Source of the DNA: Agrypnia vestita
Taxonomy: Eukaryota; Arthropoda; Insecta; Trichoptera; Phryganeidae
Length of the DNA stretch: 64,000 bases
Direction of reading: 5' to 3'
Assembly (NCBI GenBank): GCA_016648135.1
Contig: JADDOH010023043.1
Coordinates: 102,413-166,412, forward strand
The notes under the pieces were generated by a model. It saw nothing but the letters and a program-made list of their open reading frames with translations. It did not search any database and was not told the origin of the DNA. Position 1 is the first letter of the stretch; each line of letters opens with the position of its first letter. Position numbers and translations under genes: made by a program. Positions 2,431-64,000 of the stretch are shown here, piece by piece.

Positions 2431-2573
2431 CTTTGTCCTATACACAGTTATACTATCAGCAAAAATGTCAGAAAATATATATATATAATATATTAAGGTT
2501 ATAATTAAGACATTTTTCAAAAAAATATTGATTGTATTATTTGTATATATCTACTTATATTATTTAATTAATT

Positions 2574-2616
2574 ACGCCAACATGTTTCGGAAATACCTTT
2601 CCATCATCAGGGTGTT
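2574..2616 (-). ncRNA. Hammerhead ribozyme, minimal type I (family P1)
   Basis: On the minus strand: ACACC (stem I), CTGATGA, then GGAAA-GGTA-TTTCC (stem II, 5 bp), GAAA, and ACATGT as a palindromic stem III. The predicted cut follows the T after ACATGT, and GGCGT completes stem I with one mismatch to ACACC. All invariant core residues are present. Stem III is too short to fold alone; the palindrome suggests dimer formation, as established for PLE hammerheads. Confidence 0.8.
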
Positions 2617-2649
2617 GTATATTTATATTGTTATTAACTTAGTTATACA

Positions 2650-2691
2650 ACACCCTGATGATGGAAAGGTATTTCCGAAACATGTTGGTGT
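2650..2691 (+). ncRNA. Hammerhead ribozyme, minimal type I (family P1), best copy
   Basis: ACACC at 2650-2654 pairs perfectly with GGTGT at 2687-2691 (stem I). CTGATGA is at 2655-2661. Stem II GGAAA/TTTCC lies at 2663-2676 with loop GGTA. GAAA is at 2677-2680 and stem III is the palindrome ACATGT (2680-2685). Cleavage is predicted after T2686. The core is complete and stem I is fully paired, so this is the strongest candidate for an active ribozyme in the window. It is the inverted twin of the copy at 2574-2616. Confidence 0.85.
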
Positions 2692-2934
2692 AATTAATCA
2701 AATAATATAATTAAATATATACAAATAATACAACCAATATTTTTTTTAAATGTCAATCTACAATGTTGCTGAATCAATTGAAAAAATAAGTAATTTTTCT
2801 TTTTGAAATGTACTGCAGTATCTTAAAATATCATTTCTAAGTTATTTTCACAATTTGTAGAACTGATTACCTCATAATTTATAGGAGAATTCACAGGGGA
2901 ATAAGTTTTATAATTATTTATGCGGAAAAGACGT

Positions 2935-3435
2935 GTGTGGCTTGAATGGCAAGTTGGAGTATGAAAGTTCAACTTATTCAGGGCAGTCGATATTATTGCG
3001 CAATATATTCAAGTGAAGCCTGGAATTGGCAAAAAAAGAACGAAAGTAGACTGAATGCGGTAGAAATACGGTCGCTTGGACCGTGTATGTGTGTCTATGT
3101 GAAAATCTTTGAACGATAGAGTAGAGAACGAACGAATCAGAAGTGAATGTAATGCTGGCTGTAGCGCAAAATATAGAATAAAGAAAGGAGTGAGGAAAGG
3201 ATGGTAAAGAAAATTTACGAGGCGAGTGTTGAAGGCAGAAGAAACAGAGGGCGTCCGCGGAAGACCTGGCATGACCAAATAAATCAAATTCTTGAGGATG
3301 GTCTTGTTAGAAGCTTCAACAACCGAAGAGAGTGCATGAGATGTATGAAAGTGAATGAAGCAAAAGTGGTGTGCCAGGACAGAAGAGTGTGGCGTTCTAT
3401 CCTCTCTGCCTACATCTATGGGAAACGGCGTGATG
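2935..3435 (+). pseudogene. LINE reverse transcriptase C-terminal end (family A), decayed
   Basis: Conceptual translation with frame changes gives a SEAWSWQKKNESRLNAVE-like stretch near 3015-3060, then from 3201 an open frame with MVKKIYEASVEG, RGRPRKTWHDQ and VVCQDRRVWRSILSAY. This is the C-terminal tail seen in many arthropod non-LTR retrotransposons. Paralogous tails in the window are at 24595-25095, 29580-29975 and 59063-59420. The N-terminal endonuclease and catalytic RT motifs are missing: a 5'-truncated insertion. Confidence 0.8.
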
Positions 3436-3546
3436 GTGAATAGTATAGTTAGTTATATTCTAAAAAATATTAGTCATTCGATATGGTGTAAACGATACTT
3501 AAAGGAATTACATGGATGTGTGAACATTTTATGTATACATACGCGT

Positions 3547-3870
3547 AGATACTAATATACAGAGGTAAAGTTTGTAGGTTTGGATGTAGGAGGTTATCTC
3601 CGAAACTACTCATCCGACATAAAAAATTCTTTTACCAATATTTAGAATGGACTTTCAGGGTGGACATAAGATATGTATTATCCCATTAAAATAAAAGGGC
3701 TTCTCGTGGTGACCTATTTTACATCTAAAGTTGATGAAAAAACGATCGAGCGATGCGTTTTATACGAACGCTGCTTTAACGGTAAGAGATATTTAAGTAA
3801 TTACTGTAAAGAAGTTGTGAAAGAAAATACTTTCTATGAAGAATGTTATAAAAATGCAATTCATTTTTAT
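3547..3870 (+). mobile_element. Helitron-like 5' region fragment
   Basis: The segment from GATACTAATATACAGAGG through CTCCGAAACTAC, ACCAATATTTAGAATG, AAAATAAAAGGGCTT and ATCGAGCGATGCGTTTTAT closely matches 21561-21845, which begins with the TCTATACTAATAT end common in lepidopteran non-autonomous Helitrons. The short ORF here is not a gene. Confidence 0.55.
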
Positions 3871-3874
3871 GCAT

Positions 3875-4060
3875 ATAACTAGCCGTCAAAAATGACGACC
3901 TTTTACATATCGGTTCCTAAAGAATATGTATTTATGTAAAAAAAAAGAAAAGAAAATATTAAAAAAAAAAGAAAACGAAGGAAAAAGAAAAAAAGTTTTG
4001 ATAAAATAAGTTACGGGCGGCATAGGCAGAGACAGAGAGGCAACGAAATTATTTTTAATG
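3875..4060 (+). repeat. S-family repeat (hairpin start, ACGAAATTATT tail)
   Basis: It starts with ACTAGC followed by the hairpin CGTCA-AAAA-TGACG (3884-3897) and ends in AGAGAGGCAACGAAATTATT near 4055. The same start is found inverted at 16635-16648. The same tail is found at 13920, 16450, 23200, 47415, 51112 and 62295. The tRNA-like middle seen at 23 and 47 kb is missing here and replaced by an A-rich stretch. Confidence 0.55.
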
Positions 4061-4214
4061 AAATTTAAAAGAAATGAAATTTTAATAAATATTATTAAGT
4101 TCTACAGTTATTTTAAATGTGAAGATGTTTCGTCTCGTAATTAATAATATTATTTATTACATTTTAATATATTTTAAATTTAATTAAAAATAAACAAGGA
4201 GACCGTAATCACAA

Positions 4215-6204: not shown

Positions 6205-6500
6205 ATATAATCAATAAAAATTAACTTTCTTTTCACTACTTTTGTATTGAAAAATATCAACATGTTTCAGAGCCCATGGCCCCTTCGTTAGGATACAATT
6301 GTATATAAAAAATAAAAATCAAAATTATATTTTGATTTTTATTTTTTATTTTATTTTTATTTTATTTATTTATTTTATTTATTATTTTTATTTTATTTTA
6401 TTTTGTCTATATTTCGATTTTTAATTAGTAAGTATACAATTGTATCAATCGAAACATGTTGATATTTTTTAATACAGAAGTGTTGAAAACAAAGTTCATT
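6205..6500. mobile_element. Palindromic twin-hammerhead relic (family P2)
   Basis: Inverted arms: ATCAACATGTTTCAG near 6258 and GAAACATGTTGATAT near 6450, with matching outer sequence (AACTTTCTTTTCACTACTTT versus AGTGTTGAAAACAAAGTT). The left, minus-strand ribozyme (6254-6298) has CTAACGA for CTGACGA, so the core is broken. The right copy has lost CTGACGA and stem II. The centre is TTTTATTTTATTT low-complexity. The geometry matches the unit at 2512-2755. Confidence 0.6.
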
Positions 6501-6764
6501 TTTACTTCCTTTCTTTTAACTCGCGACGTCTGCTTGTTTGTTTTCTTGACGAAAAAATTTTGAATCGATTTTTAACCCTTTTCCCGTGATCCAATCGAGC
6601 TGAAACTTTGCAAGCAGACTCGTGGCGACAATCAAGAAGATCTATCAAATTTTCGATAAAAAGAAATATAGTATAATTTTGGATTTTTAGAAAATTTAAT
6701 TGATTTTTGAAAATTGGAAACCATACAAATGTTTGATTACCTACTACCAACAGCGGCCTGAGGA
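6501..6764. other. Unclassified, repeat-like
   Basis: The phrase GATCCAATCGAGCTGAAACT, followed by a CGTGGCGACAATCAAGAAGA-like stretch, has the look of a dispersed element, but no second copy exists in this window. The 82-codon minus-strand ORF shows no domain. Confidence 0.3.
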
Positions 6765-14340: not shown

Positions 14341-14385
14341 GTGTCTACCGGTTTCGAGACGTAACCCGTCTCTTCGTCAGGACAA
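14341..14385 (-). ncRNA. Hammerhead ribozyme (family P3), intact core
   Basis: The minus strand reads TGTC (stem I), CTGACGA, A, GAGACG-GGTTA-CGTCTC (6-bp stem II), GAAA, and ACCGGT as palindromic stem III. Cleavage is predicted after the A that follows ACCGGT, and GACA closes stem I (4 bp). All core residues fit the type I hammerhead consensus. Flanking sequence (14280-14420) matches the mutated plus-strand copy at 9195-9265, defining a PLE-like family whose coding part is not seen here. Confidence 0.8.
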
Positions 14386-16680: not shown

Positions 16681-17825
16681 TTTTTTTTTGTGTAGGATAG
16701 ACTCCTAAAAAAAATCTTGATTATCCAAGGGGCGTGGAGTGAGAACATCGAAGCGTTACTTTTTCCTAAGCATATACTAAAAAAAAAAACAAATAAAATA
16801 TATATCTCGAAATTTTCCTAATATTCGGTGGGAAAAATATTTGATTTTGATATTTTCCCCAATATATGTTTACGTAAAAGTCATGCTCCAATGTTCTCAC
16901 TACGGTGGATTATTACATTACATTAAACCTATGTAATGAGCGTTTATAAGAGACTTGATGACCATATATAATTGTTACATATTTTTTCCTGTACTAAGTC
17001 ATGTCTTCGAATGGTTAATGCTCTGTAAAATAATAAAATCATGTTAATTTCATCTGCGTCGTATAATTTCTGAGATGTAAGAGTTTAGAGGTACTGATAC
17101 ACATACTTATTTTTTACTTTAAAACTACCATGCTCTAACAACTGTACACACTTGCTTGTTATTGGCAGGCTTATTTTAATCATACTTATGAATGAGCATG
17201 TTCAAAGCTAACAATCACAAACACATTCTTATTACTGGAATACTCTTGTCATAGAATAGAGACGCTCTTGTTCAAAATATAAATTTTGCAAACTGAAATA
17301 GAAAATTCAAGTGAACCAATAAATTTTTGATTTTAGTTTTAATAATTTTTATTATAAGATTTGAATAATTCATATTTTTTAGTAAAGTTTCATAAACATT
17401 ATTTCTTGCTATATTATTTTTATATAGCGGTAACCGAGTATTCGACAGACATTCGTGATTCCTATAATAATGTTCTGTCATCTCCTCAACGCGCCATATT
17501 ATTTGTTTCATCTGTCGCAGACTGAGAAGATAGCATCAAAAATCGATACTAGCCGCGAATTACATTAGCATACTCACAAGCAAGCTTGTTCACACATGCT
17601 CAAAAGATACGCACACATGCACATGCTACTAAGTAGCAATAGCTCAAGAAGCTCAATTTTGCGCATGCTCACGTGCCACTAATGAGCACGCTTATCAGTA
17701 CACTATTTTCGTGATAAATTTTGATCATGCCCGCCGTACCTCGTACCGATTTTTAAGTCAAAAAATGTGACACATCGCATTGTTGCCCCGAGACCTTCAA
17801 ATTGTACAAAGAAATTTATGAGTGG
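16681..17825. other. Unclassified AT-rich stretch with GCTCA-rich segment
   Basis: No gene. From 17190 to 17700 the words GAGCATG/CATGCTC and AGCTCA recur irregularly (for example ATGCTCAAAAGATACG, AAGCTCAATTTTGCGCATG, CACTAATGAGCACGC), a loose local repetition that I cannot assign. Confidence 0.35.
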
Positions 17826-18231: not shown

Positions 18232-18730
18232 GACACCTTAAATCTGTGCTGTTCTGAAAATAGCAATATTGGGATGTCAGATCTTTATCCCAACACTTAA
18301 TAGACAAAAATTAAAATACAAAATATACGAGACGTAGGCATAAGTCGGTATTCGGCGAAGATTTGTATATTTTCACGTATCTTTGGTCTGTCAGCTGCCT
18401 TCCTCCGCAAACGTAACCTCACAAATAATAATTTTAAGCTTATAAAAAAGTATTATTTGACATGAACTTATTAATTTCTCTTCCCATAGCGTCCTTATGT
18501 AAAATTATGACAAAATTATCATTGTCACGGACCATAGAAAATATAAATATTGTTGGACTCTATTTATATTTGACGTTTGACGGTTAACCGTGATGTATTC
18601 TTTCTCCCTCTGACCACACCACCGACGTATGCCTACATTTAGTTTATTTTTTTATTTTATTTTCATCTATTAAGTGTTGGGATAAAGAACTTACATCCCA
18701 ATACTGCTATTTTCAGAATAGCACAGAATA
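18232..18730. mobile_element. DNA transposon-like element with ~75-bp TIRs
   Basis: The left arm (CTGTGCTGTTCTGAAAATAG ... GGGATGTCAGATCTTTATCC ... CACTTAATAGAC) is inverted at 18655-18728 (CTATTAAGTGTTGGGATAAA ... CATCCCAATACTG ... AGAATAGCACAG). The interior of about 340 bp has no transposase. This is a non-autonomous element of unknown superfamily. Confidence 0.75.
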
Positions 18731-19094: not shown

Positions 19095-19118
19095 GCATAT
19101 ACACACACACACACATTA
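19095..19118. repeat. (CA)n microsatellite
   Basis: A short ACACACACACACAC tract inside AT-rich DNA, followed by GTGCAGTGAGAAAAATGAAG. A similar phrase (CACTGCACGCCTCTGATAC) occurs inverted at 19275-19300, so both may flank a small inverted element. Confidence 0.6.
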
Positions 19119-19800
19119 GGCGCGTGCAGTGAGAAAAATGAAGCAAGACTTTTACGTAGATATATATTTTAGAAATTAAATATAGTATTTATCTGACAGA
19201 ATATTATAGTATGAATAATAAGGTATTATAAGATTATTTCGAGACAAAATATATGTTTATATAAAATTCATGTTTCAATGTTCCCACTGCACGCCTCTGA
19301 TACACACACATACATAAATAAAAAACAAAAATAAACCAACCACGACCAACCCGATAACCTATTTAAAATGTGTAAAATCTTACCGATACAAAAAGGTACT
19401 TCAGTACAAACGGACACTGGGAGATTTCGGGGAGAAAAGGACACGCCCAATTGAATTAGGTACTACCTAACCTACACATATATTGTACTCACCTGTAAAA
19501 TTAGGGTGTCTTGTAATTGGACAAAGACTGTCTAATTACATCACTGGTTTATATGTGTTTGAGTTCGTAAGAATCATTTTGGAGTTCATTAAAGTTATTG
19601 TTGTCTAATGCAATGAGGTAAATTTTTAGATACTTCTTCAGAAAGATTGTTTATTGTTGAAGGGAGATGCAATTTTTTTTTGTTTGTTTTCTGGTTAATA
19701 TTTAATGCACAAAATCGGGAATTTAAACGTTATTTATGCCATTTTGTTGAATTATTTCCGCTGTAAAAACTATCAATGCGGTTTATACAAAAAAAAAAAA
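19119..19800. other. Unclassified tract, no gene seen
   Basis: Contains GTGGGAACATTGAAACATGA-type inverted words and poly-T runs near 19670-19690 and 19790. No domain in any frame. Confidence 0.35.
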
Positions 19801-20134: not shown

Positions 20135-20222
20135 AGATTAATTGTGACCTCACCGGGAATCGAACCCGGAACCCTCGGTGTGGAAAGCCAGTGTCATGCC
20201 CATTGGACTACGAGGGTTTAAT
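20135..20222 (-). repeat. tRNA-derived SINE or pseudo-tRNA
   Basis: The minus strand reads CCCTCGTAGTCCAATGGGCA (A-box region), CACTGGCTTTCCACACCGAG (anticodon-arm-like) and GGTTCCGGGTTCGATTCCCGG (B-box and a fully paired T-arm). There is no acceptor-stem pairing between the ends, so a SINE head is more likely than a working tRNA gene. The 70-codon plus-strand ORF is its shadow. Confidence 0.6.
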
Positions 20223-21000: not shown

Positions 21001-21264
21001 GATACCGGCCATCATTTTGCATTCGAACCGAAAATCCTTGGAAACCCTACGCGTCTTATCAAGGAAGCACTAGAAATCTACAAGCACCCGATAAATATTA
21101 ATAGAGATGATGGTCTCAAATTAAAAACATCTTGGTATCCGGCGCTTCAATGTCAATCTCGTCGCAGACTCCGCAGAGATAGTGATCAGACAACGGATGA
21201 ATCATACACACAACACAATACAACACATCATGACTTCGGCACGGTATTGCAAGCCGATACTTAA
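21001..21264 (+). pseudogene. Penelope-like element ORF, C-terminal end (family P4)
   Basis: An open frame of 87 codons ends in TAA at 21262-21264; an in-frame stop just upstream (20986-20988) shows truncation. It reads HHFAFEPKILGNPTRLIKEA, LEIYKHPININRDDGLKLKT and SWYPALQ. The pattern 'EALEIxKxxxNINRDDGLxL-xxWxP' is the usual end of PLE polyproteins after the GIY-YIG domain. A hammerhead begins 30 bp after the stop, as expected for a PLE terminal region. The catalytic RT and endonuclease motifs are missing, so this is a 5'-truncated copy. Confidence 0.75.
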
Positions 21265-21293
21265 CCACAACACCAACATTCACAACAACATAT

Positions 21294-21339
21294 CAACCCT
21301 GATGATGGACCCTGCAATGGGATTCGAAACGTCGGCCCG
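21294..21339 (+). ncRNA. Hammerhead ribozyme downstream of PLE ORF (family P4)
   Basis: CC-CTGATGA-T-GGACCC-TGCAAT-GGGATTC-GAAA-CGTC, with predicted cleavage after C21333 and GG continuing stem I. CTGATGA and GAAA are intact and stem II pairs with one bulge. Stem III is the short palindrome ACGT. Stem I is weak here (2 bp, then C-A) but 3 bp in the sister copy at 24496-24538. Confidence 0.7.
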
Positions 21340-21411
21340 AAAGGTCTTAACAACACGGCATAATACCCCAGAAAACACACTTGAAGATTCTGAGTGGCCG
21401 TGAAAAACATT

Positions 21412-24425: not shown

Positions 24426-24437
24426 AAATTAATAATT

Positions 24438-24575
24438 ATCAAACCTTCTGTGTATAGTTTTCTGGGATATTCTGCCGTGTACATGTGACCCCTCTGGCCA
24501 ACGTTTCGGATCCCATTGCAGGGTCCATCATCAGGGCTGATCAGGGCAGAAAACTATACACAGAAGATTCTGAAC
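24438..24575. mobile_element. Collapsed palindromic hammerhead element (family P4)
   Basis: Left arm CTTCTGTGTATAGTTTTCTG (24441-24460) recurs inverted as CAGAAAACTATACACAGAAG (24546-24565). Between them is one minus-strand hammerhead; the second copy expected on the right arm is missing. It looks like a twin-hammerhead palindrome that lost one ribozyme. Confidence 0.6.
24496..24538 (-). ncRNA. Hammerhead ribozyme (family P4), intact core
   Basis: Minus strand: GCC (stem I), CTGATGA, T, GGACCC-TGCAAT-GGGATCC, GAAA, CGTT with cleavage after the final T at 24500, then GGC closing a 3-bp stem I. Stem II pairs as GGACCC with GGG-A-TCC, one bulged A. The core is complete. The sister copy at 21294-21339 follows PLE coding sequence, which identifies the family. 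Confidence 0.75.
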
Positions 24576-24594
24576 GGCCGTGAAAACCTAAGGA

Positions 24595-25095
24595 CAATTA
24601 TCAAACCAACAATCACGCCGTTTCTCTGCAGGGTTAGGCAGAGAGGATAGAACGCCATATTTTTCAATCTTGACACACCACTTTTGCTTCGGCTACATTC
24701 ATTATATTCTATGGTTGTTGAGGCTTGTAATAGGGCCATCCTCCAATACTTATAGTATCTGATCGTGTCGGGTTGTTCGCGGACGCCTTCTATTCCTGTT
24801 GCCTTCAACACTCGCCCCAAATATTTTCTTAACCACCCTTTCCTATACGTTCTGCATGACCAAACCATCTCAGCACTCATTTCTTTATTTTATCTACCAT
24901 ACTACAGCCAGCATTACATTCACTTCTAATTTGTTCATTCCTCGCTCTATTGACCAAAGATTTTCTACACAAATGTCTTAGTAACCGAATTCAGTCTACC
25001 TTCATTTCTTTTATGCCAATTCCAGGATTCAATTCCGCACGTCAGAGTTGGCACCAGAACGCCATAATGTATCGCTAGTCTTGCTGATGATGATG
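24595..25095 (-). pseudogene. LINE RT C-terminal end (family A)
   Basis: On the minus strand, in pieces: VPTLTCGIESWNWHKRNEGR and LNSVTKTFV near 24970-25080, then KKYLGRVLKATGIEGVREQP, RYYKYW and RLKNMAFYPLCL near 24600-24850. Order and wording match the tails at 2935, 29580 and 59063. Frameshifts separate the pieces. Confidence 0.7.
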
Positions 25096-34264: not shown

Positions 34265-34565
34265 ATAATAAAGATAAGGATAATTTTTAAAAAAAATCGG
34301 GTGTTTATAAATTAATTTGTAATGATTGTGATTATTTTTATATAGGAAAAACGTGTAGAAATTTTGAAATTAGAGTTAAGGAACACTTAAGGTGTTTAAA
34401 TACTAATAATTATTCCGAATTTCCTAACCATCTTTTGGCTATGGATCATTCTTTTGATATTAATAAGGGTTTACAAATTTTACATACAAATTATACAGAA
34501 TAAAAATTTGATAAATTAGAAATTTTGGAAATAAGAAAGAGTGTAAATAGGTATTTTATATTATC
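34265..34565 (+). pseudogene. Penelope-like element GIY-YIG endonuclease domain (family P2)
   Basis: Plus-strand translation: YKLICNDCDYFYIGKTCRNF, EIRVKEHLRCLNTNNYSEFP, NHLLAMDHSFDINKGLQILH, then after one stop (TAA near 34501) FDKLEILEIRKSVNRYFILS. This is a clear GIY-YIG endonuclease segment of the PLE type, including the conserved 'KEHL' arginine/glutamate region and the C-terminal 'LEILEI' motif. A hammerhead sits about 65 bp downstream at 34627-34671. Reverse transcriptase upstream is missing. Confidence 0.8.
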
Positions 34566-34626
34566 ATTTTCCATATATAACTTTTTAATATTTTGATCTA
34601 TACTTCGATTTTTAAATATTATTTTT

Positions 34627-34671
34627 GTTATCCTGACGAAGAAGCCATTGGCTTCGAAACATGTTGAATTT
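34627..34671 (+). ncRNA. Hammerhead ribozyme downstream of PLE endonuclease (family P2)
   Basis: TATC-CTGACGA-A-GAAGCC-ATT-GGCTTC-GAAA-CATGTT, then GAATT. The 6-bp stem II is perfect, CTGACGA and GAAA are intact, and stem III is the palindrome ACATGT. Stem I is weak (GA/TC, then a mismatch); the P2 relic at 6254-6298 has a better-paired version (GATAT/GTATC). Confidence 0.75.
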
Positions 34672-44600: not shown

Positions 44601-45041
44601 TACAATCGAAATAATTTGTTTATTTTTATTTTTTTTCATTTATTTAATTAATAATATATATACAATATTTTTTTACAATCATACATAGACAATGTTAACA
44701 AATCGATATTTTTTGTGTGTATACCAAGTTATTTGTAAAACATTAATAACCTCGCAGGACTATACTCCTGCCTTGATTACGAGTCGAAAATGATCAAGCT
44801 ATTATGACCTAATATCAAAAGTTATTGAGATATGTGACATCGAAGTTTGGATTTTTTTTCAATATTTCCGAGTTATTTTTTGTAAAACGTCGGACTATCA
44901 TTACAGTAACTAATATCAATTACGAAAAATTCATTTGTTTCAATACAAGTTAAACAAAATGATTAAAATCTTGAAAAAATTCCAATTGATTTCAAATATG
45001 TTTTAATATACTTTGTAATACACACACAATATGAGTTATTA

Positions 45042-45091
45042 ATTTACAACTATAGTTTCGAGAGGAGCAGTCCCTCTCATCATCAGGTATA
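45042..45091 (-). ncRNA. Hammerhead ribozyme (family P5), left twin
   Basis: Minus strand: ATAC-CTGATGA-T-GAGAGG-GACTGCT-CCTCTC-GAAA, stem III palindrome ACTATAGT, cleavage after the next T, then GTA pairing with TAC. A perfect 6-bp stem II and intact core. Identical in sequence to the plus-strand twin. Confidence 0.8.
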
Positions 45092-45145
45092 GATATAGTT
45101 ATATAGGTATAGTTATTATCTATAGTTGTATAGGTATAGTTATTA

Positions 45146-45197
45146 TCTATACCTGATGATGAGAGGGACTGCTCCTCTCGAAACTATAGTTGTAAAT
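45146..45197 (+). ncRNA. Hammerhead ribozyme (family P5), right twin
   Basis: CTGATGA at 45153-45159, stem II GAGAGG/CCTCTC at 45161-45179, GAAA at 45180-45183, stem III palindrome ACTATAGT at 45183-45190, predicted cleavage after T45191. Stem I is 3 bp (TAC/GTA). The 8-bp palindromic stem III is the longest here and would support dimeric folding. Confidence 0.8.
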
Positions 45198-46034
45198 TAA
45201 TAACTCATATTGTGTGTGTATTACAAAGTATATTAAAACATATTTGAAATTATAATGTTGCACCACGAAGTATCTGCCAAATCTTTCAATGATATTAAAA
45301 TTCCAATTGTTTCAATACAAGTTAAACAAAATGATTAAAACCTTGAAAAAATTCCAATTGGAATTCGAAGGTTTTAATTTTTTTATTTGACTTGTATTAT
45401 AGTGAATGAATTTTTCATACTCGATATAAGTTACGGTAATGATAGTCCAACGTTTTACAAAAAATAAGTCGGAAATATTGAAAAAAAAATGCAAACTTCG
45501 ATGTCGCATATCTCCTTAACTATTGATATTGGGTCATAATAGCTAGAACATTTTCGACTCATAATCAAGGCAGAAGTATAGTCCTGCGAGGTTATTAATG
45601 TTTTCCAAGTAACCCTTTTAAGCTATTATGACCTAATATTAATAGTTAAGGAGATATGCCACACCAAAGTTTGCTTTTTTTTTTCAATATTTCTGACATA
45701 TTTTTTGTAAAACTTTGTAAAAATTTTTGTAAAAAAAGACTATCATTACAGTAACTTATATCGAGTATGAAAAATTCATTTCCTATAATACAAGTCAAAT
45801 AAAAAAATAAAAATCTTCCAAAAGAATTCCAATTGGAAGACATTCCAATGGGAATTTTTCAGGGTTTTAATCATTTTATTTAACTTGTATTGAAACAAAT
45901 GAATTTTTCGTAATTGAATGACTAAGGCATATTAAAAATTATATAGAAAGAAAGAATAAAAAATTTAAACAAAAGAAAAAGAAACTTAATTATTAACAGA
46001 AAAACATAGGCATGTTAAAAAATAATACAAAAAG

Positions 46035-48649: not shown

Positions 48650-49065
48650 GAGTTATCTTTTTTTAAATGGACGTAGTTAAGCTGAAAGCATCTAACCTAA
48701 AAAAATAAGGAAGGGAAAATGGCTTCTTATAACTTTAATTTACAAAAACCTAATACGTCGATATTTAATTCATAGTTGTTTGTTTTAATATATAGTTTTT
48801 GCATAGGGCTCATTAATTTTTAAAGTTTTTTAAAGCTATATGAAAAAAAATATTTACGAAGATGTGACGCGTTTTATAGTTTGGATTATTTCTATATAAT
48901 GTCTAAATGTATGTAAAGCAGTCCTTATTTTGTTCTATGTGGGTTGGATGTATTTAATACTTTGCGTCTTGGATTTATTGTTTTATATTTTAATATAACA
49001 TGCAAGTATAAGTATGTTTTATTTTTTTAATTGGTTGAACAACTAGATTGACATTAAAAAAAAAG
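48650..49065. other. AT-rich tract without gene
   Basis: No ORF or repeat partner recognised. Confidence 0.35.
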
Positions 49066-49069
49066 ATTT

Positions 49070-49335
49070 TATTGTTTGTTTGCATCAACTTATATTTACT
49101 AATTACAATTACATGTTTCGGAAAAACCTTTCCATCGTCAAGGTTTTTAATAAATGTCAAAATATCAAAATGAATGATGTCTTTAGTTTTTTTTCTAAAT
49201 TAGGTATTTTTAAATATTATTGCTGTAGTTGTCTTTGATATTTTGACATTTATAAAACACTCTGATTGTGGAAAGGTTTTTCCGAAACATGTAGGTGTAA
49301 TTAATAAATATAAGTAGATAAAAACAAATAATTAA
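49070..49335. mobile_element. Palindromic twin-hammerhead relic (family P1)
   Basis: The left, minus-strand copy (49105-49150) has TTGACGA, stem II GGAAA/TTTCC and GAAAC-ATGTA. The right, plus-strand copy (49258-49305) has CTGATTG, the same stem II and GAAAC-ATGTA-GGTGT. Both cores are mutated in the CTGAYGA box. Outer arms (ACTTATATTTACTAATTACA / TGTAATTAATAAATATAAGT) match, as in 2512-2755. Confidence 0.7.
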
Positions 49336-49339
49336 ATAA

Positions 49340-49870
49340 TTTTTTAAGTATATAAGTATGGTTGATCATGAATCAGTTGTCACTTCTGTTTTAAATTTTT
49401 TCTTGGATAAAAGGTATTTAATTACCTTGCGTGATTAATAAATAAATATTTAAGAATAATAAAACAAATTGTGGACGTTTTTTGAGTTACTTTAACGGTG
49501 ATAGCTGTGTTGGGTGTTAGAAAAATATTGAATGAAAATAAACTATAGCACTTAGAGCTTGGACGTTTTCAGTTCGTACAGATATCGTAGTGAGCTGTCC
49601 AAGTAGCATTTAAGAAGCAGCATCAAATAACTATTCTACTTCTTATGGTGCCATCTTAATTATTTTTTTATTTTATTTATAATCTAATTATTTATTACTT
49701 AACTGTGTATACATCTTATTATATAAGTCTTGAGAATATTTCTTTAATAATACATAATTTTAAAGTTAATATTATGTATTTATACTACATACTGTTATTA
49801 TCTTTGCTTACAATTTTCCATTATTTTTCTCTTTACTAAAAAAATGTATTTATCTATTAACTAAAAAATA
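49340..49870. other. AT-rich tract without gene
   Basis: No coding or repeat signal recognised. Confidence 0.35.

Positions 49871-52182: not shown

Positions 52183-52213
<31 letters not shown>
52183..52213. repeat. (AT)n microsatellite at mariner target
   Basis: TATATATATATATATAT runs directly into the mariner terminus at 52214. Mariner inserts at TA, so an AT tract is a natural target. Confidence 0.9.
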
Positions 52214-52217
<4 letters not shown>

Positions 52218-53498
52218 GTCCTTACATATGAAATTGACGTTTAGTATGGGAGGAACATAAAGCCGATTTTTTTAATTATAATATATTTATTTAATCAAAG
52301 TATGTACCATTGCTATCTATGCACTTTTGCCATCTCATAGGTAGTTCATCGATCCCTTTACTTAAAAAACCATTCGGACGGGAATCAATAAAATCTTTGA
52401 AGGCGGTTTGGACTGCCCCATCGGAGTTGAATTTTTTCCTTTGCAAGAAGTTATCCAAATTTCGAAAAAAATGGTAATCTGTTGGGGCAAGGTCCGGAGA
52501 GTACGGTGGATGTCTTAGACATTCCAATTGAAGCTCCTCTAATTTGGTAGCCGTCTGTTGTGCAGTGTGTGGTCTAGCGTTATCATGAAGCAGCAGTGGC
52601 CTAGAGCGATTAACCAGCCTCGGTTGTTTAGCAGCTAGCTTTTCCATCATGGTTTGCAGTTGCTGACAATAGACATCTGCCGTAATCGTCTGGCCAGATT
52701 TAAGAAAGCTGTAGTGAACGACACCAGCACTAGTCCACCAAACGCTCACAAGTAACTTTTTTGGAGTCAATTTTCGCTTGAGGCATGGTTTGCCTGGTTC
52801 GGCAGGGTTCAGCCACTGCGATGAGCGCTTCCGATTATCGTACAAGATCCACTTTTCATTACAGGTAATGATTCGATTTAAAATCCCTTCATTATTGTGC
52901 CGGTTGAGTAATGCAACGCAGCAGTCAACGCGCGTTTGTTGATTTGTTTCACTCAATTCGTGAGGTACCCACCTTTCAAGCTTTTTCACCTTACCAATTT
53001 GCTTCAAGTGGATTAAAACAGTTTTATCACTAACACCGCAGCCTGCAGCTAACTCGGATGTGGTTTGCGATGGATCCGCTTCCACAATAGCCTTCAATTC
53101 TTCATTATCAACTTTGGTCTCCGGCCGTCCACGGGGCTTGTTCTGCAGGTCGAAATTTCCAGAACGAAAACGTTGGAACCAAAAACGCACTGTGTTTTCT
53201 TTTGCGGCACCGTCGCCATACACATCATTAATCCTTCGAGCCGTTTCTGCAGCACTGGTGCCACGGTGGAACTCGTACTCGTAAATAACGCGATATTTCA
53301 AGTTTTTCATTTTGTAAACTGAGTGACGCAAAGAAAAAAACAATTGAGGAAAAAACAAATGAATTATAATTTTCAAAACACAAATACATGAGTAAATAGC
53401 TGTATAAATTTGGATTTGGAATTCTTAACCAAAGAGAAGATATTTGAGATCAAATTTGCCAGTACGGCAAAACGTGAATTTCATATGTAAGGACCTAA
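52214..53498 (-). mobile_element. mariner transposon, copy 2 (1285 bp)
   Basis: Complete element with TIRs starting TTAGGTCCTTACATATGAAA at both ends and TA target duplications at 52212-52213 and 53499-53500. It carries a full-length transposase ORF on the minus strand. It is oriented opposite to copy 3, which begins 1630 bp further on. Confidence 0.95.
52291..53310 (-). CDS. mariner transposase (cecropia-type), complete ORF but catalytic Asp1 replaced by Asn
   Basis: 339 residues counted from MKNLKYR; the frame is open 22 codons further upstream, but that stretch is 5' leader and mariner transposases are about 345 residues. N-terminal helix-turn-helix region: TSAAETARRINDVYGDGAAK, ENTVRFWFQRFRSGNF, GRPET at about 61-65, and second DNA-binding helix ELAAGCGVSDKTVLIHLKQI. 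Linker WVPHEL at 114-119. Catalytic triad D,D34D: position 151 reads ITCNEKWILYDN, Asn instead of Asp (codon AAT at 52860-52858); D243 in HDNARPHTA and D278 in APTDYHFF are intact. The cut-and-paste reaction needs all three carboxylates, so the protein should bind ends but not cleave. Hsmar1/SETMAR-like motifs support the cecropia subfamily. Confidence 0.92.
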   Translation of the reverse strand: MKNLKYRVIYEYEFHRGTSAAETARRINDVYGDGAAKENTVRFWFQRFRSGNFDLQNKPRGRPETKVDNEELKAIVEADPSQTTSELAAGCGVSDKTVLIHLKQIGKVKKLERWVPHELSETNQQTRVDCCVALLNRHNNEGILNRIITCNEKWILYDNRKRSSQWLNPAEPGKPCLKRKLTPKKLLVSVWWTSAGVVHYSFLKSGQTITADVYCQQLQTMMEKLAAKQPRLVNRSRPLLLHDNARPHTAQQTATKLEELQLECLRHPPYSPDLAPTDYHFFRNLDNFLQRKKFNSDGAVQTAFKDFIDSRPNGFLSKGIDELPMRWQKCIDSNGTYFD

Positions 53499-53504
53499 TA
53501 TTAC

Positions 53505-54374: not shown

Positions 54375-55125
54375 AAGAAACTAATCTATAACATAACAAA
54401 CTCAATATGCCAAATTTACAAAGATTATTTTATAAATAAATCTCACCCCTTAGACTGTATAAGTAATAGACATAGAACAAAGGGACAAATAAAGATACCA
54501 ACTTCAAGAATCATCACGGCATAGCATCATTATACATGCTTGAGAGTTAAATGGTACCATACATTGTTGTCGCAAAACAAATTTCAAGAAAGGAACATTC
54601 CAAAATACGAACAGTTTAAGAATGAAGTCAAATCCTTGAGGTTGGACAACGATGTATTGTAACATTGCCCACATGTCTTAAATGGCTTCTGTATAATAAA
54701 AAAATTACTACTTCTAAATAGTTTCTACTTTTGTACTTTAATTTGGCTTGTAAATACTCCTCCCATAAGCTCGAACTTTGGCTCATATTATAGAGAGTAT
54801 AATGTCTTTAAAATGTTATAACAAAGAATAAATTTATTATAAAAAACATTATGTATCTACTGTATAAATAAATAGGAATAAAAATAATCTACAAAACTTG
54901 ATAACGTGTGAATGTTCTTATTGTGGAATTTTTAAACGTTGCATTATGTAAAGGGATCACTTAAGATGAGAGTAGCATTCATTATCGTATTAATTAATAT
55001 AACAGTTATATCATAATGTGAAAGTAGTTACAGGGGTTGTATTACTGAAGGGTAGTTAAACGTGATATAACACAGGGTGGCCCGGACTGCGTGCGCGTAA
55101 TTCGGCGGGGGAAGACAGGCATTAT
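54375..55125. other. AT-rich tract without gene
   Basis: No domain in any frame. CAGGGTGGCCCGGACTGCGT, GCGCGTAATTCGGCGGGGGA at 55072-55112 is a small GC-rich patch at the edge of mariner copy 3. Confidence 0.35.
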
Positions 55126-55128
55126 ATA

Positions 55129-56414
55129 TTAGGTTCTTACATATGAAATTGACGTTTTACCGTACTGGCAAATTTGATCTCAAATATCTTCTCTTTGGTT
55201 AGGAATTCCAAATCCAAATTTTTACAGCTATTTACTCATGTATTTGTGTTTTGAAAATTATAATTCATTTGTTTTTTCCTCAATTGTTTTTTTCTTTGCG
55301 AGACTCAGTTTTCAAAATGAAAAACTTGAAATATCGCGTTATTTACGAGTACGAGTTCCACCGTGGCACCAGTGCTGCAGAAACGGCTCGAAGGATTAAT
55401 GATGTGTATGGCGACGGTGCCGCAATAGAAAACACAGTGCGTTTTTGGTTCCAACGTTTTCGTTCTGGAAATTTCGACCTGCAGAACAAGCCCCGTGGAC
55501 GGCCGGAGACCAAAGTTGATAATGAAGAATTGAAGGCTATTGTGAAAGCGGATCCATCGCAAACCACATCCGAGTTAGCTGCAGGCTGCGGTGTTAGTGA
55601 TCAAACTGTTTTAATCCACTTAAAGCAAATTGGTAAAGTGAAAAAGCTTGAAAGGTGGGTACCTCACGAATTGAGTAAAGCAAATCAACAAACGCGCGTT
55701 GACTGCTGCGTTGCATTACTCAACCTGCACAATAATGAAGGGATTTTAAATCGAATTATTACCTGTGATGAAAAGTGGATCCTGTACGATAATCGGAAGC
55801 GCTCATCGCAATGGCTGAACCCTGCCGAACCAGCCAAACCATGCCCCAAGCAAAAATTGACTCCAAAAAAGTTACTTGTGAGCGTTTGGTGGACTAGTGC
55901 TGGTTTCGTTCACTACAGCTTTCTTAAATCTGGCCAGACGATTAGGGCAGATGTCTATTGTCAGCAACTGCAAACCATGATGGAAAAGCTAGCTGCTAAA
56001 CAACCGAGGCTGGTTAATCGCTCTAGGCCACTGCTGCTTCATGATAACGCTAGACCACACACTGCACAACAGACGGCTACCAAATTAGAGGAGCTTCAAT
56101 TGGAATGTCTAAGACATCCACCGTACTCTCCGGACCTTGCCCCAACAGATTACCACTTTTTTAGAAATTTGGATAACTTCTTGCAAAGGAAAAAATTCAA
56201 CTCCGATGGGGCAGTCCAAACCGCCTTCAAAGATTTTATTGATTCTCGTCCGAATGGTTTTTTTAGTAAAGAGATCGATGAACTACCTATGAGATGGCAA
56301 AAGTGCATAGATAGCAATGGTGCATACTTTGATTAAATAAATATATTATAATAAAAAAAAATCGGCTTTATGTTCCTCCCATACTAAACGCCAATTTCAT
56401 ATGTAAGGACCTAA
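55129..56414 (+). mobile_element. mariner transposon, copy 3 (1286 bp)
   Basis: Complete element: TIRs TTAGGTTCTTACATATGAAA (one change from the consensus) and the inverted TTAGGTCCTTACATATGAAA at the right; TA target duplications at 55127-55128 and 56415-56416. A full transposase ORF lies inside. With copies 1 and 2 it forms a family of three near-identical elements within 21 kb. Confidence 0.95.
55317..56336 (+). CDS. mariner transposase (cecropia-type), complete with D,D34D triad
   Basis: 339 residues from MKNLKYR (55317); TAA at 56334-56336. Cuts and pastes its own element at TA sites in the nucleus. Two N-terminal helix-turn-helix regions (about 17-50 and 85-107), GRPET hook-like motif at 61-65, WVPHEL linker at 114-119, catalytic D151 (ITCDEKWILYDN), D243 (HDNARPHTA) and D278 (APTDYHFF), with exactly 34 residues between the last two. 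C-terminus ends WQKCIDSNGAYFD, as in the family. Compared with copy 2 it has a few changes (K for E at 77, F for V near 197, R for T at 210). It is the only copy in the window that could encode an active enzyme. The annotated start ignores a 22-codon upstream extension lying in the 5' leader. Confidence 0.93.
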   Translation: MKNLKYRVIYEYEFHRGTSAAETARRINDVYGDGAAIENTVRFWFQRFRSGNFDLQNKPRGRPETKVDNEELKAIVKADPSQTTSELAAGCGVSDQTVLIHLKQIGKVKKLERWVPHELSKANQQTRVDCCVALLNLHNNEGILNRIITCDEKWILYDNRKRSSQWLNPAEPAKPCPKQKLTPKKLLVSVWWTSAGFVHYSFLKSGQTIRADVYCQQLQTMMEKLAAKQPRLVNRSRPLLLHDNARPHTAQQTATKLEELQLECLRHPPYSPDLAPTDYHFFRNLDNFLQRKKFNSDGAVQTAFKDFIDSRPNGFFSKEIDELPMRWQKCIDSNGAYFD

Positions 56415-56416
56415 TA

Positions 56417-57325
56417 TATCATCTAAATTGTTTGTAATAAATATTCAATTCAAATTCCACTTAGTGTAGAAAAACGCAGGACGCAAAATCTATAAATTTT
56501 AAATGGACTTTTTGTGATCAGGATACCTCGAAACTAGTCTTGTTTCTAAATGGCGGTTGTTTAAAAGCTTCGTTCGTTCTAGAGAAAAAATCTTTAACAT
56601 ACTTCTTCTGAACTTATTATGTGGTTGTAAAAAAATATTCGTAATTCTGAGTAATGAAAAGAGATACACATTCTTTCATACACATACAAAATCTATCTAA
56701 ACTCTCCGGCAAGTACCAGTTTTTTTACACTTATCGGTGTGTTAAACAGCACATTAAGGTTAGTAGGTACTTTTTTAAAGGGAATCGATACCCTTTATTT
56801 TTTTTTATTGTTCAAGATTATTGTTCTTGAATGATATCTTAAATAATAATTAAATAATTAAAGACGCAACCAACCAGATAAACAAATAGAAAGGTTACTT
56901 ATGATGCCCTATGAATTTTTCAGTCTTTGGATCCGATGATCAGCGATCAAATCCCGATGATTGTACGTAAAATTATGAGGTGATTTTTAGTTGCAGTGCT
57001 TTATATATATATATTGTATGTATACATTGACAATTATTAAATATATTTTTTTAATAAAACACACTCAATTGTGGTGTGGCAATTTTAGACCATAGTTTTA
57101 TAATATTTTTATCGATAAAAAAAATTAGGTAACCACCGAGATACAAACCCAGATTTTTTTTCCATTTCTTTCCATCCAATTCCCCCAGATCCGGGGAACT
57201 GCGACAGGTTAATTTTGCCATGTAAAACATTTGTGATTACGATTTTGAAATTTAAAAGCACATGTAGACTAGAAGTTTAGAAGTTTACATTACGGTCATT
57301 TGACGTAGGTATATTTAGGTATTGA
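56417..57325. other. AT-rich tract without gene
   Basis: Poly-T and TTATTG runs, no ORF. CAGTCTTTGGATCCGATGATCAGCGATC at 56922-56949 has an imperfect GATC-rich inverted pattern only. Confidence 0.35.
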
Positions 57326-57329
57326 AGCA

Positions 57330-57515
57330 ACGAATACTTTGCACGAACATTATGGATATTCTGAGATTCGGTTCTCGACGTTTCGCGTCATCAAGAGAGT
57401 GCCCATTCGAATACGTCCCTTACTCTCACGGCAATAGGGCACTCTCCTGATGACTCTGTAAAATGACTCCAGCAAAACGTCGAGAATCGTATCTCAACAC
57501 ATCCATACGGTGCGT
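57330..57515. mobile_element. Palindromic twin-hammerhead-like relic (family P6)
   Basis: Arms GAACATTATGGATATTCTGA, GATTCGGTTCTCGACG and CGTCGAGAATCGTATCTCAA, CACATCCATACGGTGC are inverted repeats. The left, minus-strand core is TTGATGA-CGC-GAAA-CGTC-GAGA with stem II deleted. The right, plus-strand core (57443-57486) is TCTC-CTGATGA-...-AAAA-CGTC-GAGA, with perfect stem I but GAAA mutated. The centre contains CTTACTCTCACGGCAATAGG. Confidence 0.6.
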
Positions 57516-57519
57516 ATAA

Positions 57520-59040
57520 AATATTCGTAAATATTGTTCCAATATTTAAATGATATAGGTATTATTTCATTTTTCAAATAGCAATCAATTTTACATTGCA
57601 ATAATTCCAAGAAACATACGCGATAGGTGACGTAAGATCAATCAATTTTCGATATTTATTCCTAATATATAAAATGGCTGTTTACAAATGATATTTTTAT
57701 TATAATTATCTTTGATACGACTAACATATACATATTTTTTACAAAAACACTTTTTTTGTAATGTTGTAATTTAAGATTTTTTCTTGTAATATACGGGTAG
57801 GTGTATACATACATAATCGTATACTAACAATTTTTAAACGACTGATATACACATTTAAATTTTAATAATTACTTTTTTATATTTCCTATATGATACGGTA
57901 TCTAATTTTCTATGCAATTATGTTATTATATGTGTAAATAACCTAATTAAAAAATAACATCGAAAGGGCGGTTTCCCTTTTAAATCTAATAGACTGAATA
58001 TTCAATTGGTAACCTCCATTCAACCCCTTCAGACAAGGTTTGCGAGATCTGGATGTACGGGAGAGGCTGCTTGGTACGTCGCAAAAATGCCTCAATAAAG
58101 ACTGACGGCCAATAAGAAACCTGCTACATCCATATTCAGCGCGCAGACAGGGATTCTAGCGTAGATGTTGATGAAAACTCGGGGAGAGAGTTTCATTTCA
58201 AAGTATAATTGATTACAATTAGGTTGATTAAAAGTAAAATGGTCGCTGATTTATTGCGCCACTTCGAGAACTTGATGATTAAATATAAAGCCCTATTTAT
58301 TATCTAGAGATGAATATTACGAGCCAAGTGGTTCAGGGAGAAATAAACGAAATGGTAGACTCTATTAAAAAGGCGATTAAAAATGTGCACCGTTTACGCT
58401 ATGTTGTAAAAAAATTTGTCTCGGAAAATAAAAAGGTTGTTATTACTTCATTAAAGCAACGGAAATTTAAAAATAAATAGTGAATTTGAACATTTTATTA
58501 GGTTCTCACGGCTTTTTAGAATCTTCTGGATTGTACGTTGGAATTGTTCCGTGCTGTTTTGAACTTTCTGGCCGAAGCACTTACGAGTTTTGGACGGATC
58601 TACGCGACCAACAGTCAATTTTGTAAAACTTGCCACAGATAAAAAAAATACTACCTCATTAAGTTGAATAGTCGTTGAACAATAGAGGACCCCTCCCGCA
58701 GACCTCTGATACCGTTCCGAGCTAAGGTCGCAGTCTGAAATTGAACGCCAGCATTAGTGCGCCATATTTTCTAGACGCTCCTGCGGAACAGAATAGGAAA
58801 ATATAGGCAAGACCTCATATATTTTGAGTATTTTCGATATTGTTTAATAGAATTACAATAATATTTTAGCGAACCGAAAATATTTCTCCTATTTACAATT
58901 TTTTTATGTATGTATGTATGCATGTATGTCATAGAATTGAATGACAAAAGAAACCACGTCAGCAACTCCGCAATTTTAAAGATCGTCAGTCCCAAAGTGT
59001 GGAGTGGTTATTTCACTCTATGGTAATTTGGTAATAAATT
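57520..59040. other. Mostly AT-rich, no gene recognised
   Basis: 58000-58200 (TTTGCGAGATCTGGATGTAC, CAGCGCGCAGACAGGGATTC) is unique and of moderate GC. 58450-58640 encodes on the minus strand a 61-residue frame (TVGRVDPSKTRKCFGQKVQN) of unknown kind, possibly a transposon relic. (ATGT)n at 58908-58930 is a short microsatellite. Confidence 0.3.
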
Positions 59041-61448: not shown

Positions 61449-61449
61449 T

Positions 61450-62225
61450 GGGTTCAAACCCATCCTTAACCGGAGGGCTCATCCACCTCCAAAAGGCTAT
61501 GGAAATGGGTTGCGTTAAGGACATAGCAGGAGTAATAATTTTGCACCTAGTGAGAAGTATAGACATAAGTACGTTTTTTTTGTTATTTTCTATCCATATT
61601 GTTAATTTTTATTATGGTTTCATTTTTTTTTATTTTATCCCATTATTTGTTCAATTATTCAAATAGTTAAATTTTTCATTCTAACTTCACTTGTCGTATT
61701 AAAAAGAACGGATTACACATTATGTATTAAATGATGTAGGTACTTAATATTTTCTTAAATAAATAAAATATATATTGAGGGAGACTCTTGAAATAGAGCC
61801 GCTATTTCCATACATAGAAAGATCTCAATTTAGGTGGTTCTGACGCGGATTTCGAATGCTAGAGGTGTGACAATTATGATGTAACTTATTGGCAACTTTG
61901 GAGAAAAAGCCAGCGATTAGTATCCTTATAATAAGTTGGAAAATATAGTAAAAACGATTTTATAAATATAGATTGGTTCTTGATTGGTCTACTAGTACCG
62001 AGCTTCGCAAGATAGGGAAAGATTGAAGTATCTTGTTAAGATACTCGACCTTTCAAGAATAATGAGACGAAGCTGATGATTATTAGAATGAATTTATTTC
62101 GTAGTTAAATTTCGCTACGCTGCTTAGAATTTATAGCTATAACCTATAAAAAAAAGAAAAAAAAACTTTAAAGAAGAAGAAATAAAGGGAAAAAATACTA
62201 TTAATAAAATAAAATAAATTACTAT
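61450..62225. other. No gene recognised
   Basis: 61450-61520 may be LTR-element leader. The rest is AT-rich without repeats or domains. CGAAGCTGATGATTATTAG at 62068 is not a hammerhead. Confidence 0.35.
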
Positions 62226-62230
62226 AAAGA

Positions 62231-62310
62231 AGTTACGGATGTTACACGAAGTTACGATGGACGGATGGACGGATGGACGGATGGACGGACAGACAAAGAA
62301 ATTATTATAA
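62231..62310 (+). repeat. S-family tail with (GATGGACG)n minisatellite
   Basis: GTTACGGATGTTACACGAAG, TTACGATGGACGGATGGACG repeated about four times, then ACAGACAAAGAAATTATTAT. The GGACGGAT expansion sits where other S tails have GGACAGACGGACA, so it arose by slippage within the tail. Confidence 0.75.
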
Positions 62311-62314
62311 TTGG

Positions 62315-63105
62315 GATAAGATTCTCACCACCTTGAAATTTAAAAAAATGTTTTTTTTGCTTTATCTTATAACTTGAAGTTTAAAGAATGAGTAATCGCA
62401 CATTCAAAAGTTCAAAAATTGGCTGAATCGGAACTCCTCTTTTAAGTACAGGTGGAAAAATAATCTCAAAACCTATTAAAAAGATTTTGTTTAAATTTTC
62501 ACACATTTTACAAATAACATTGTCTACGATGTAGCATACGTTTTAAATAATAAATTGTGCCGTTTCTTTGTTATGAATTTTTAACTTTATAGGGTAAAAT
62601 AAAAATTATTTTCTAGCTGATCTCGTTTACACAAAAAAAAAATTTCGATATGCCAGATCATAGTCATCGCATCATTTAACAATAAAATTATTCACGTTTT
62701 GATTTCACTCAAACCCTGGCGACATGATTATACCCACCAGATGCGCACATCACGAAAAAGGACCTTTGCGGACAGCGCATGACTCCGCCATTTGTAAATT
62801 TTTTTCAAGTAATTTGTTGATTTAAAATAAGAACCAATATATATCGTAAATAGTGATAATAAAACGAATATTTTGTGTTTAATAATTTGTCTCAAGGTGG
62901 TGTCACACCCCCTTTAAAAAAAAAATATTTTTATAATATAATTTAATAAACAATTATTACCAAATTTACCATCGGTCTTTTCGTGGATCACTTTTGATTA
63001 ACAGCCAATTAAAGGTAGTCTTAACTTTTATGCATTGTGCATAGGTTTTAATCTTAAAAAAGCGTACCTTTTAAAAAAGTAATCAGATATAAACAAAAAC
63101 CAGGA
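62315..63105. other. AT-rich tract without gene
   Basis: No credible ORF or repeat partner. GCGCATGACTCCGCCATTTG near 62775 is a small mid-GC patch. Confidence 0.35.
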
Positions 63106-63109
63106 GGAA

Positions 63110-63360
63110 GGATAGATTAGAGAGGGATTTTCTTCCACGACTTTGAATACATTTCCGGTTGTTATATTAGAGGTTTACGGGATTAGAAGGAGGTCTGAGG
63201 GATCCGTCTTGCCAGCATCGCCCGTAATTCCGTCCAGGTGAATTAAATGTGAGGTATTATTTAGCCGAGGCTTACGGGCGGCGGTGTGTCGCCGGCGCCT
63301 TTATCTAATTATTCCACAGTTAAAGTTTACTGCCTCCCTCACTTTAAACATGCTTATATT
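63110..63360. other. GC-rich region with RNA-free, ORF-free unique sequence (island)
   Basis: GGGATTAGAAGGAGGTCTGA, GGGATCCGTCTTGCCAGCAT, CCCGTAATTCCGTCCAGGTG, AAATGTGAGGTATTATTTAG, CCGAGGCTTACGGGCGGCGG and GTGTCGCCGGCGCCTTTATC. Similar in character to the other GC-rich islands. Possible conserved non-coding element by inference. Confidence 0.35.
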
Positions 63361-63879
63361 AAAGTGACGATTTGATTTAAATTTTTTTTTTGGTACATTA
63401 TATTTTATCTCGTGTTTTACCGAAATTTTTAGTATTTACCGAAAACCGTATCCATATTTTTTTGGATTTTGGATATAGATTTCTTAGCCTTATTATTATG
63501 GGAGGTAAGACTGGGATAACTCATTCATTGTAGATAGTAGTTATATTTTCTATTAATTTTTTAATTAATACTATGAAATTTGATTGAAAATTTATTCAAA
63601 GAAGTTTAATTCACACAAAATTACATAAATAAACAAAAACAATCGTAATCTTATATAGCTGATACAGCAAAATTAGTAGGTATCCATAGCTGATTATCCA
63701 TAGGTGTATCCATAGGTGATTACCAAATATTTTAACGATATATACATTTTTTCTTATATATATTCATCTTATTTGTTTATCGTAATATTTTGTAATAGTA
63801 CCTAATCTATTTCTAGATTTTTTATGAGCTAGGGAAATTTCTCAACTTTCAAATATATTTTTAATTTAAACTATATTTG

Positions 63880-64000
63880 AGTAATTTATTATTACTTTAG
63901 TTTTGAGAAGAGCAGTACCTTTCGTAATCACGTATAGTTAGTTATAACTTACACCTGATGTTGAGAGGGACTGCTTCTCTAGAAACTATAGTAATAATAA
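63880..64000. mobile_element. Palindromic twin-hammerhead relic (family P5), cut by window end
   Basis: The left, minus-strand copy (63895-63940) has lost most of the CTGATGA box. The right copy at 63957 reads CTGATGT-T-GAGAGG-GACTGCT-TCTCTA-GAAA-CTATAGT, with one mutated core base and damaged stem II. Outer arms TTATTATTACTTTAG and CTATAGTAATAATAA match. Same family as the intact pair at 45 kb. Confidence 0.65.

Follow-up and report, generated by a model that had tools for sequence, protein, structure and literature searches.

Background

The endonucleases of Penelope-like elements (PLEs) are GIY-YIG enzymes (PMC3846280), and minimal type I hammerhead ribozymes sit in the pseudo-long terminal repeats (pLTRs) of these elements (PMC7761336, PMC6155905). 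PLEs of the rotifer Adineta vaga are described as bounded by inverted pLTRs, mostly in head-to-head orientation, one of which may carry a 31-bp tail, and as having duplications of 8-10 bp (PMC3846280). Head-to-head pLTRs, tails, duplications and pLTR hammerheads have each already been published, in the accounts just cited. How PLEs insert, and how their frequent head-to-head ends arise, is an unsettled question. In the passages concerned, one account proposes self-priming on an antisense template for the head-to-head ends and leaves the template open (PMC3846280); another reports that in vitro the enzyme of the lizard element PAc cuts both strands and extends them, initiates internally and works mainly on unprocessed RNA, and it calls the steps after both-strand extension unvalidated (PMC11167929). 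Here we describe seven short palindromes (P1 to P7) associated with predicted hammerhead ribozymes in a stretch of 64,000 nucleotides from the trichopteran Agrypnia vestita (contig JADDOH010023043.1, positions 102,413 to 166,412; hereafter the window). We propose that they are probably head-to-head pLTR pairs, each of which would have been made in a single insertion by reverse transcription primed on both strands of the target.

Divergent hammerhead cores in several families

The sample is this one 64-kb window with its seven palindromes, in which the hammerhead cores were read by hand. A descriptor combining the core (one mismatch allowed), an extra base before stem II, five or more pairs in stem II, GAAA and a short stem III found 10 hammerhead-like cores, of which 8 are exact; 100 order-2 Markov windows gave 0.02 on average and never more than 1. 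The extra base was required by this descriptor and is therefore present in all 10 motifs. A stricter descriptor gave 5 cores, against a mean of 0.13 in 30 order-1 windows. Stem I is short, with 3-5 pairs in these five. With a conserved core and stems I, II and III present, the motifs are predicted type I hammerheads, self-cleavage being likewise a prediction from sequence. A looser descriptor, which matched 20 times in the window and 2-13 times per model window, was discarded as uninformative.

Profile searches did not name these motifs with confidence. Rfam over the window returned no hammerhead at its own thresholds, nor up to E=10. When the right copy of P3 was searched alone the best family was Hammerhead_HH9, at 16.4 bits far below the gathering score of 52, and a low-threshold search of the right copy of P1 alone gave no hammerhead. 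A motif search of the IMG/VR viral collection found 27 stretches (L001-L027) with hammerhead-like motifs, in most of which stem II can pair and is preceded by the same extra base; a second motif had zero matches there. Nothing Penelope-like was seen in the ribozyme flanks printed for these stretches, whose genes were not tested, and a low-threshold Rfam search of one of them (L005) named no hammerhead.

Among 17 cores listed by hand, some intact and some decayed, all five pairs of close neighbours (less than 1500 bp apart) are divergent, none being tandem or convergent, and in all five both members come from the same family. The right core of P4 stands 8 bp too early in this list, which does not alter the outcome. 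P1 and P4 belong to family A and P3 and P6 to family B. Family C unites P7 with a single core at 21299; family D unites P2 with a single core at 34633 and a coreless piece near 47490; family E unites P5 with a single core at 12297, which has a non-standard stem II. Family F consists of the single cores at 9209, where GAAA is lost, and 14380. The original prediction, made from the letters of the window, had listed six inverted repeats and a seventh, collapsed one (24438-24575), in a divergent arrangement recurring across at least four sequence families. Arm alignment recovers all seven inverted repeats, the arrangement does recur, and the palindromes fall into five families (A-E). The further claim that every one of the six sites has two cores is borne out in P1 and P3, where both cores are intact, and is not confirmed in P2, P4, P5 and P6.

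The state of the cores follows the similarity of the arms. Intact pairs are found in the twins with the most similar arms, P1 and P3, and broken ones in the other four, a comparison made by eye over few sites. P2 and P7 have a core on one side only. In P5 the left core is without stem II and the right has AAAA in place of GAAA; in P6 one side reads CTGATGT and the other is scrambled. Core loss thus goes with age (arms 94.6 and 98.3% identical in the intact twins as against 81.6-89.5%), as expected of copies that are not kept by selection.

The window is rich in other inverted repeats. One palindrome with 80-nt arms (35038-35244) has no hammerhead core visible by eye, and further inverted repeats lie at 18243-18727, 28357-28669, 43688-43938, 16738-16901 and 19115-19301, their ribozyme check being the motif scans only. 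The surroundings of P3 (44728-45917) contain nested inverted repeats, and P3 seems to lie inside a larger palindromic repeat.

Unequal ends and flanking repeats

The outer ends of the palindromes are all 3' ends of the repeat, and there is an optional tail at one of the two. In P1 and P4 the tail is defined by homology. The left arm of P1 (2519) and the right arm of P4 (49345) end at matching places, and an extra stretch of about 40 homologous nt is found on the right of P1 and the left of P4, matched as well by 2 of 2000 random stretches. No tail was detected beyond the left end of P1 or the right end of P4, where the best matches are reached by 381 and 513 of 2000 random stretches, respectively. 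Upstream of the cores P1 and P4 look unrelated, and the two arms of P4 have a 5' segment in common; the two insertions are separate, with no relation between their centres. In P3 and P7 the tail is defined by position relative to the flanking repeat, as a one-sided extension of 46 nt (P3) and 22 nt (P7). Beyond the left end of P7 the best match to the right extension is reached by 712 of 2000 random stretches. The longer end is on the right in P1, P3 and P7 and on the left in P4. The two halves of P7 differ in content: the left is a full hammerhead copy and the right a tail-only copy, so that the tail occurs only on the right and the ribozyme only on the left.

Short target-site duplications flank P7, P3 and P4, the case being weakest at P4; at P7 and P4 they are the longest words that recur directly in both flanks. 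P6 runs out of the window. None of 400 random placements reached the 12 bp seen at P7, where 7 bp of the left duplication also fall within the arm alignment. At P3 a 34-bp word is also common to both flanks, farther out, and since the target is repetitive the duplication there could exceed 13 bp. Among 20,000 random placements with borders held within 4 nt, 0.06% gave repeats of 10 bp and 1.4% gave repeats of 7 bp. The test is informative for P4 and P1, where the borders come mainly from homology (that on the right of P4 lies 2 nt past the end of the arm), and is circular for P7 and P3 because there the duplication set one or both borders. An 8-bp flanking match at P5 was not accepted as a duplication, since a length of 8 or more was reached in 114 of 400 random placements.

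Table 1. Palindromes, predicted hammerheads, flanking repeats and the endonuclease frame in the window
Feature	Position	Strand	Remarks
P1, family A palindrome	2519..2790		arms 2509-2621 and 2644-2754, 94.6%; ends defined by homology, approximate
P1 left hammerhead	2579..2610	-	intact core
P1 right hammerhead	2655..2686	+	intact core; also in strict scan
P1 right tail	2751..2790	+	homologous to P4 left tail
P2, family D palindrome	6215..6504		arms 89.5% and 22 gap columns
P2 left hammerhead	6259..6291	-	core CTAACGA; right arm without core
Family F single hammerhead	14346..14380	-	10-core and strict scans
Family C single hammerhead	21299..21333	+	relative of P7
P7, family C	24446..24595		borders from duplication; arms 96.2% over 26 nt only
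P7 hammerhead	24500..24534	-	intact core; also in strict scan
P7 flanking repeat	24434..24445 and 24596..24607	+	12 bp
Endonuclease frame	34291..34596	+	decayed GIY-YIG, PLE-type; one in-frame stop
Family D single hammerhead	34633..34665	+	same strand as endonuclease frame
P3, family B palindrome	44989..45296		arms 44989-45103 and 45135-45250, 98.3%; right border from duplication
P3 left hammerhead	45048..45086	-	intact core; also in strict scan
P3 right hammerhead	45153..45191	+	intact core; also in strict scan; weak Rfam HH9 match
P3 flanking repeat	44976..44988 and 45297..45309	+	13 bp; abuts left arm
P4, family A palindrome	49017..49350		long tail left; arms 49058-49169 and 49234-49345, 84.8%
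P4 left hammerhead	49110..49141	-	core TTGACGA
P4 right hammerhead remnant	49262..49293	+	core CTGATTG, read by hand
P4 flanking repeat	49007..49016 and 49351..49360	+	10 bp
P5, family E palindrome	57310..57555		decayed; arms 82.7% and 25 gap columns
P6, family B palindrome	63886..64000		cut by window end; arms 81.6%, decayed cores

A probable link to Penelope-like elements

Hammerheads in the terminal regions of PLEs had been noted as established, and these regions appear to be the right neighbourhood. The family D single core begins 36 bp past the stop codon of a decayed, borderline-scoring GIY-YIG endonuclease frame of the PLE type, on the same strand. The Pfam GIY-YIG match to this frame (22.7 bits, E=1.2e-4) covers 41 residues. 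A second endonuclease copy on the opposite strand (32930-33298) aligns with the first at the DNA level and has a core-like remnant, GTATCCTGA, at the position of the core; against PDB it gave weak matches only, the best at E=0.11. A protein-database search with the endonuclease piece, restricted by sequence length, returned no candidates. Families A, B, C and E showed no GIY-YIG neighbour, and we infer their PLE origin from the type of ribozyme and the architecture. In the single family C core at 21299 an ATG in loop II is in register with an open stretch (21125-21400), which faintly recalls the open reading frame (ORF) of PAc that starts at stem II (PMC11167929).

Pfam scans covered the sequence downstream of three single cores (9 frames), 20 of the 53 open stretches of at least 85 aa, and the surroundings of the endonuclease copies (9 frames). 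The matches above cut-offs in these scans were GIY-YIG, mariner and one MADF domain. The three mariner copies, each about 1.3 kb and 97-98% alike (35833-37128, 52206-53501 and 55124-56419), include two with a 361-aa frame. Among the 120 relatives listed for the mariner protein, the nearest named ones are from Bombyx mori (82%) and from Pieris macdunnoughi, at 78% and, over 63% of the query, at 84%. They point to an insect as the probable host, though mariners move between species. The MADF DNA-binding domain lies in an open stretch on the reverse strand (17275-17535, 26.6 bits against a cut-off of 22). A reverse-strand tRNA match (20145-20217, 35.9 bits) could be a tRNA gene or a tRNA-derived short interspersed element (SINE).

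Origin of the palindromes

The reading that we consider probable combines these observations as follows. Both cut strands of the target would prime reverse transcription, with repeat RNA of one kind as the template. Each cDNA would begin at either of two internal sites, some 40 nt from each other, run back through an uncleaved or re-joined hammerhead toward the 5' end of the RNA, and then be joined to the other at the centre. In this proposal the two start sites yield the long-tailed and the short-tailed end, and the ribozymes are found in the arms because they were part of the template; since the copies span the predicted cut site, that template would have been uncut there or re-joined. The copies would drift after insertion, their cores decaying, and units without an ORF would be mobilised in trans. 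We infer the priming on both strands, which resembles the twin priming of LINE-1. A bolder extension, possible though on the whole doubtful, is that the default short product of PLEs is a head-to-head twin-ribozyme pair, made by both-strand priming at two fixed start sites within the RNA, and that many of the dispersed minimal hammerheads of animals belong to the arms of ORF-less palindromes of this sort, which would form a SINE-like class that parasitises PLEs.

A serious rival to both-strand priming, albeit one that we judge rather improbable, accepts the same PLE pLTR pairs and takes the second arm to be a snap-back copy, for which either an antisense RNA template or the first cDNA would fold back and prime itself. 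Such self-priming has been proposed for the palindromes at head-to-head rotifer PLE junctions (PMC3846280, in the passages on these junctions). The near identity of the P3 arms (98.3%), the private 5' sequence common to both arms of P4 and the short central spacers (22, 31 and 64 nt in P1, P3 and P4, respectively) all fit it. It does not readily explain why the tail is on one arm only in P1 and P4, or why both have the same short end, which is unexpected if copying ran freely to the end of the template. P7 also argues against simple snap-back because of its right-only tail and left-only ribozyme: each copy has sequence missing from the other, unless it was lost by later deletion.

The remaining alternatives are further from the evidence. 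Hammerhead-free palindromes are common in the window, where we counted 37 inverted pairs with arms of at least 30 nt within 600 bp, and this abundance would suit a DNA transposon or a foldback element resembling a miniature inverted-repeat transposable element, moving as a whole palindrome with the hammerheads incidental. The hallmarks of such elements (equal terminal inverted repeats, a duplication of fixed length and a common centre) were not found at these palindromes: their ends are unequal, the flanking repeats vary in length (10, 12 and 13 bp), the centres of P1 and P4 are unrelated and ribozymes of the same families also occur singly, so that this origin appears quite unlikely. Chance juxtaposition of two solo insertions made independently, or an inverted duplication that arose later, draws on the single cores present in the window (9209, 12297, 14380, 21299 and 34633), yet the close pairs are without exception divergent and of one family, and the flanking repeats enclose the whole pair at P7, P3 and P4; we give this account the least credence of all.

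It had also been suggested that the palindromes form a class kept for its twin ribozymes, and that their RNA can pass from a long hairpin to a cleaving hammerhead and back. The two intact cores of P1 and P3 are what such a functional element would retain, but the cores are broken in the four more diverged twins, as in dead copies, and the full-length RNA strongly prefers the hairpin. The entire transcripts of P3 and P1 fold as single long hairpins (-190 kcal/mol against a shuffle mean of -57.35, and -136.1 kcal/mol against -40.5, respectively), and single arms give mixed support in their minimum free energies, with z-scores from -0.2 to -4.4. The right copy of P3 and the core at 34633 favour other local folds, the hammerhead fold of the former having -8.6 as against -18.1 for a different local optimum. 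In these models a transcript running through the palindrome would be expected to hide the ribozyme, and one starting in the centre could cleave; the energies leave cleavage during transcription possible. Neither the maintenance of twin ribozymes nor the toggling RNA is thus supported, and a functional element of this kind is very unlikely.

Several observations weigh against both-strand insertion of PLE repeats, or at least against the sharpness with which it can be drawn. The GIY-YIG score of the first endonuclease frame is barely over the cut-off (22.7 against 22.6) over its 41 residues, the second copy alone scores below it (13.8 bits) and gives nothing in longer frames, and a PLE reverse transcriptase was not found in the parts scanned, which include the 20 of 53 open stretches. 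Among the flanking repeats, the 10 bp at P4 are matched in length, or exceeded, by 17 of 400 random placements, the P3 target is repetitive, the 7-bp repeat at P1 is a candidate only, and at P2 and P5 no flanking duplication stands out from chance. As to the ends, an 11-nt colinear match beyond the right end of P4 may be a tail remnant, and beyond the left end of P3 there is a weak match to the right extension, reached by 108 of 2000 random stretches. Gapped alignments exceed the proposed ends, running to 2831/48985 between the right of P1 and the left of P4 and to 2780/49379 between the right of P1 and the right of P4; since these looser alignments overrun the ends, the palindrome borders are approximate. 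The shape of P7 could stem from a later central deletion, and the arrangement and the families come from a single window.

Comparison with known systems

In short pairs that lack an ORF, have readable ends and flanking repeats and differ in their tails, both start sites and the central joint would be exposed. If insertion on both strands is correct, the palindromes would record the unsettled step of PLE movement. They would also offer a possible origin for some of the dispersed minimal hammerheads, whose role is called "a mystery" in one account (PMC7761336, in the passage concerned). Neither an ORF-less twin-hammerhead palindrome nor twin priming by PLEs was found in the open-licence literature, among the matches listed.

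Metazoan retrozymes, as described in the passages concerned, resemble the palindromes in being small and non-coding, in carrying type I hammerheads and in being thought to depend on PLE enzymes; they are tandem direct repeats that spread via circular RNA (PMC7229834), whereas the hand-listed cores of the window include no tandem pair within 1500 bp. The minimal type I hammerheads of PLE pLTRs are likewise similar in their short stem III, their dispersal in animal genomes and their place in pLTRs. They are reported there as tandem or dispersed and here form divergent pairs (PMC7761336, PMC6155905), and unlike them all ten motifs of the window have the extra base before stem II that our descriptor required. 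PAc, a Poseidon-type PLE of Anolis, provides a parallel in having a hammerhead beside its ORF, an internal start of reverse transcription and the cutting and extension of both strands; this is a lizard element studied in vitro, and head-to-head products go unmentioned in the passages concerned (PMC11167929). The closest likeness in architecture is to Pen2a_Av and other PLEs of Adineta vaga, in whose account hammerheads are unmentioned in the passages concerned (PMC3846280). In common with these elements, the palindromes show head-to-head terminal repeats, palindromes at the junction, an optional tail on one side and short target duplications; the GIY-YIG endonuclease of those elements has a borderline-scoring candidate counterpart here, beside one family D core. 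Unlike the rotifer pairs, which lie around or next to a coding element or captured DNA (PMC3846280, same passages), the pairs in Agrypnia stand alone, with no coding sequence.

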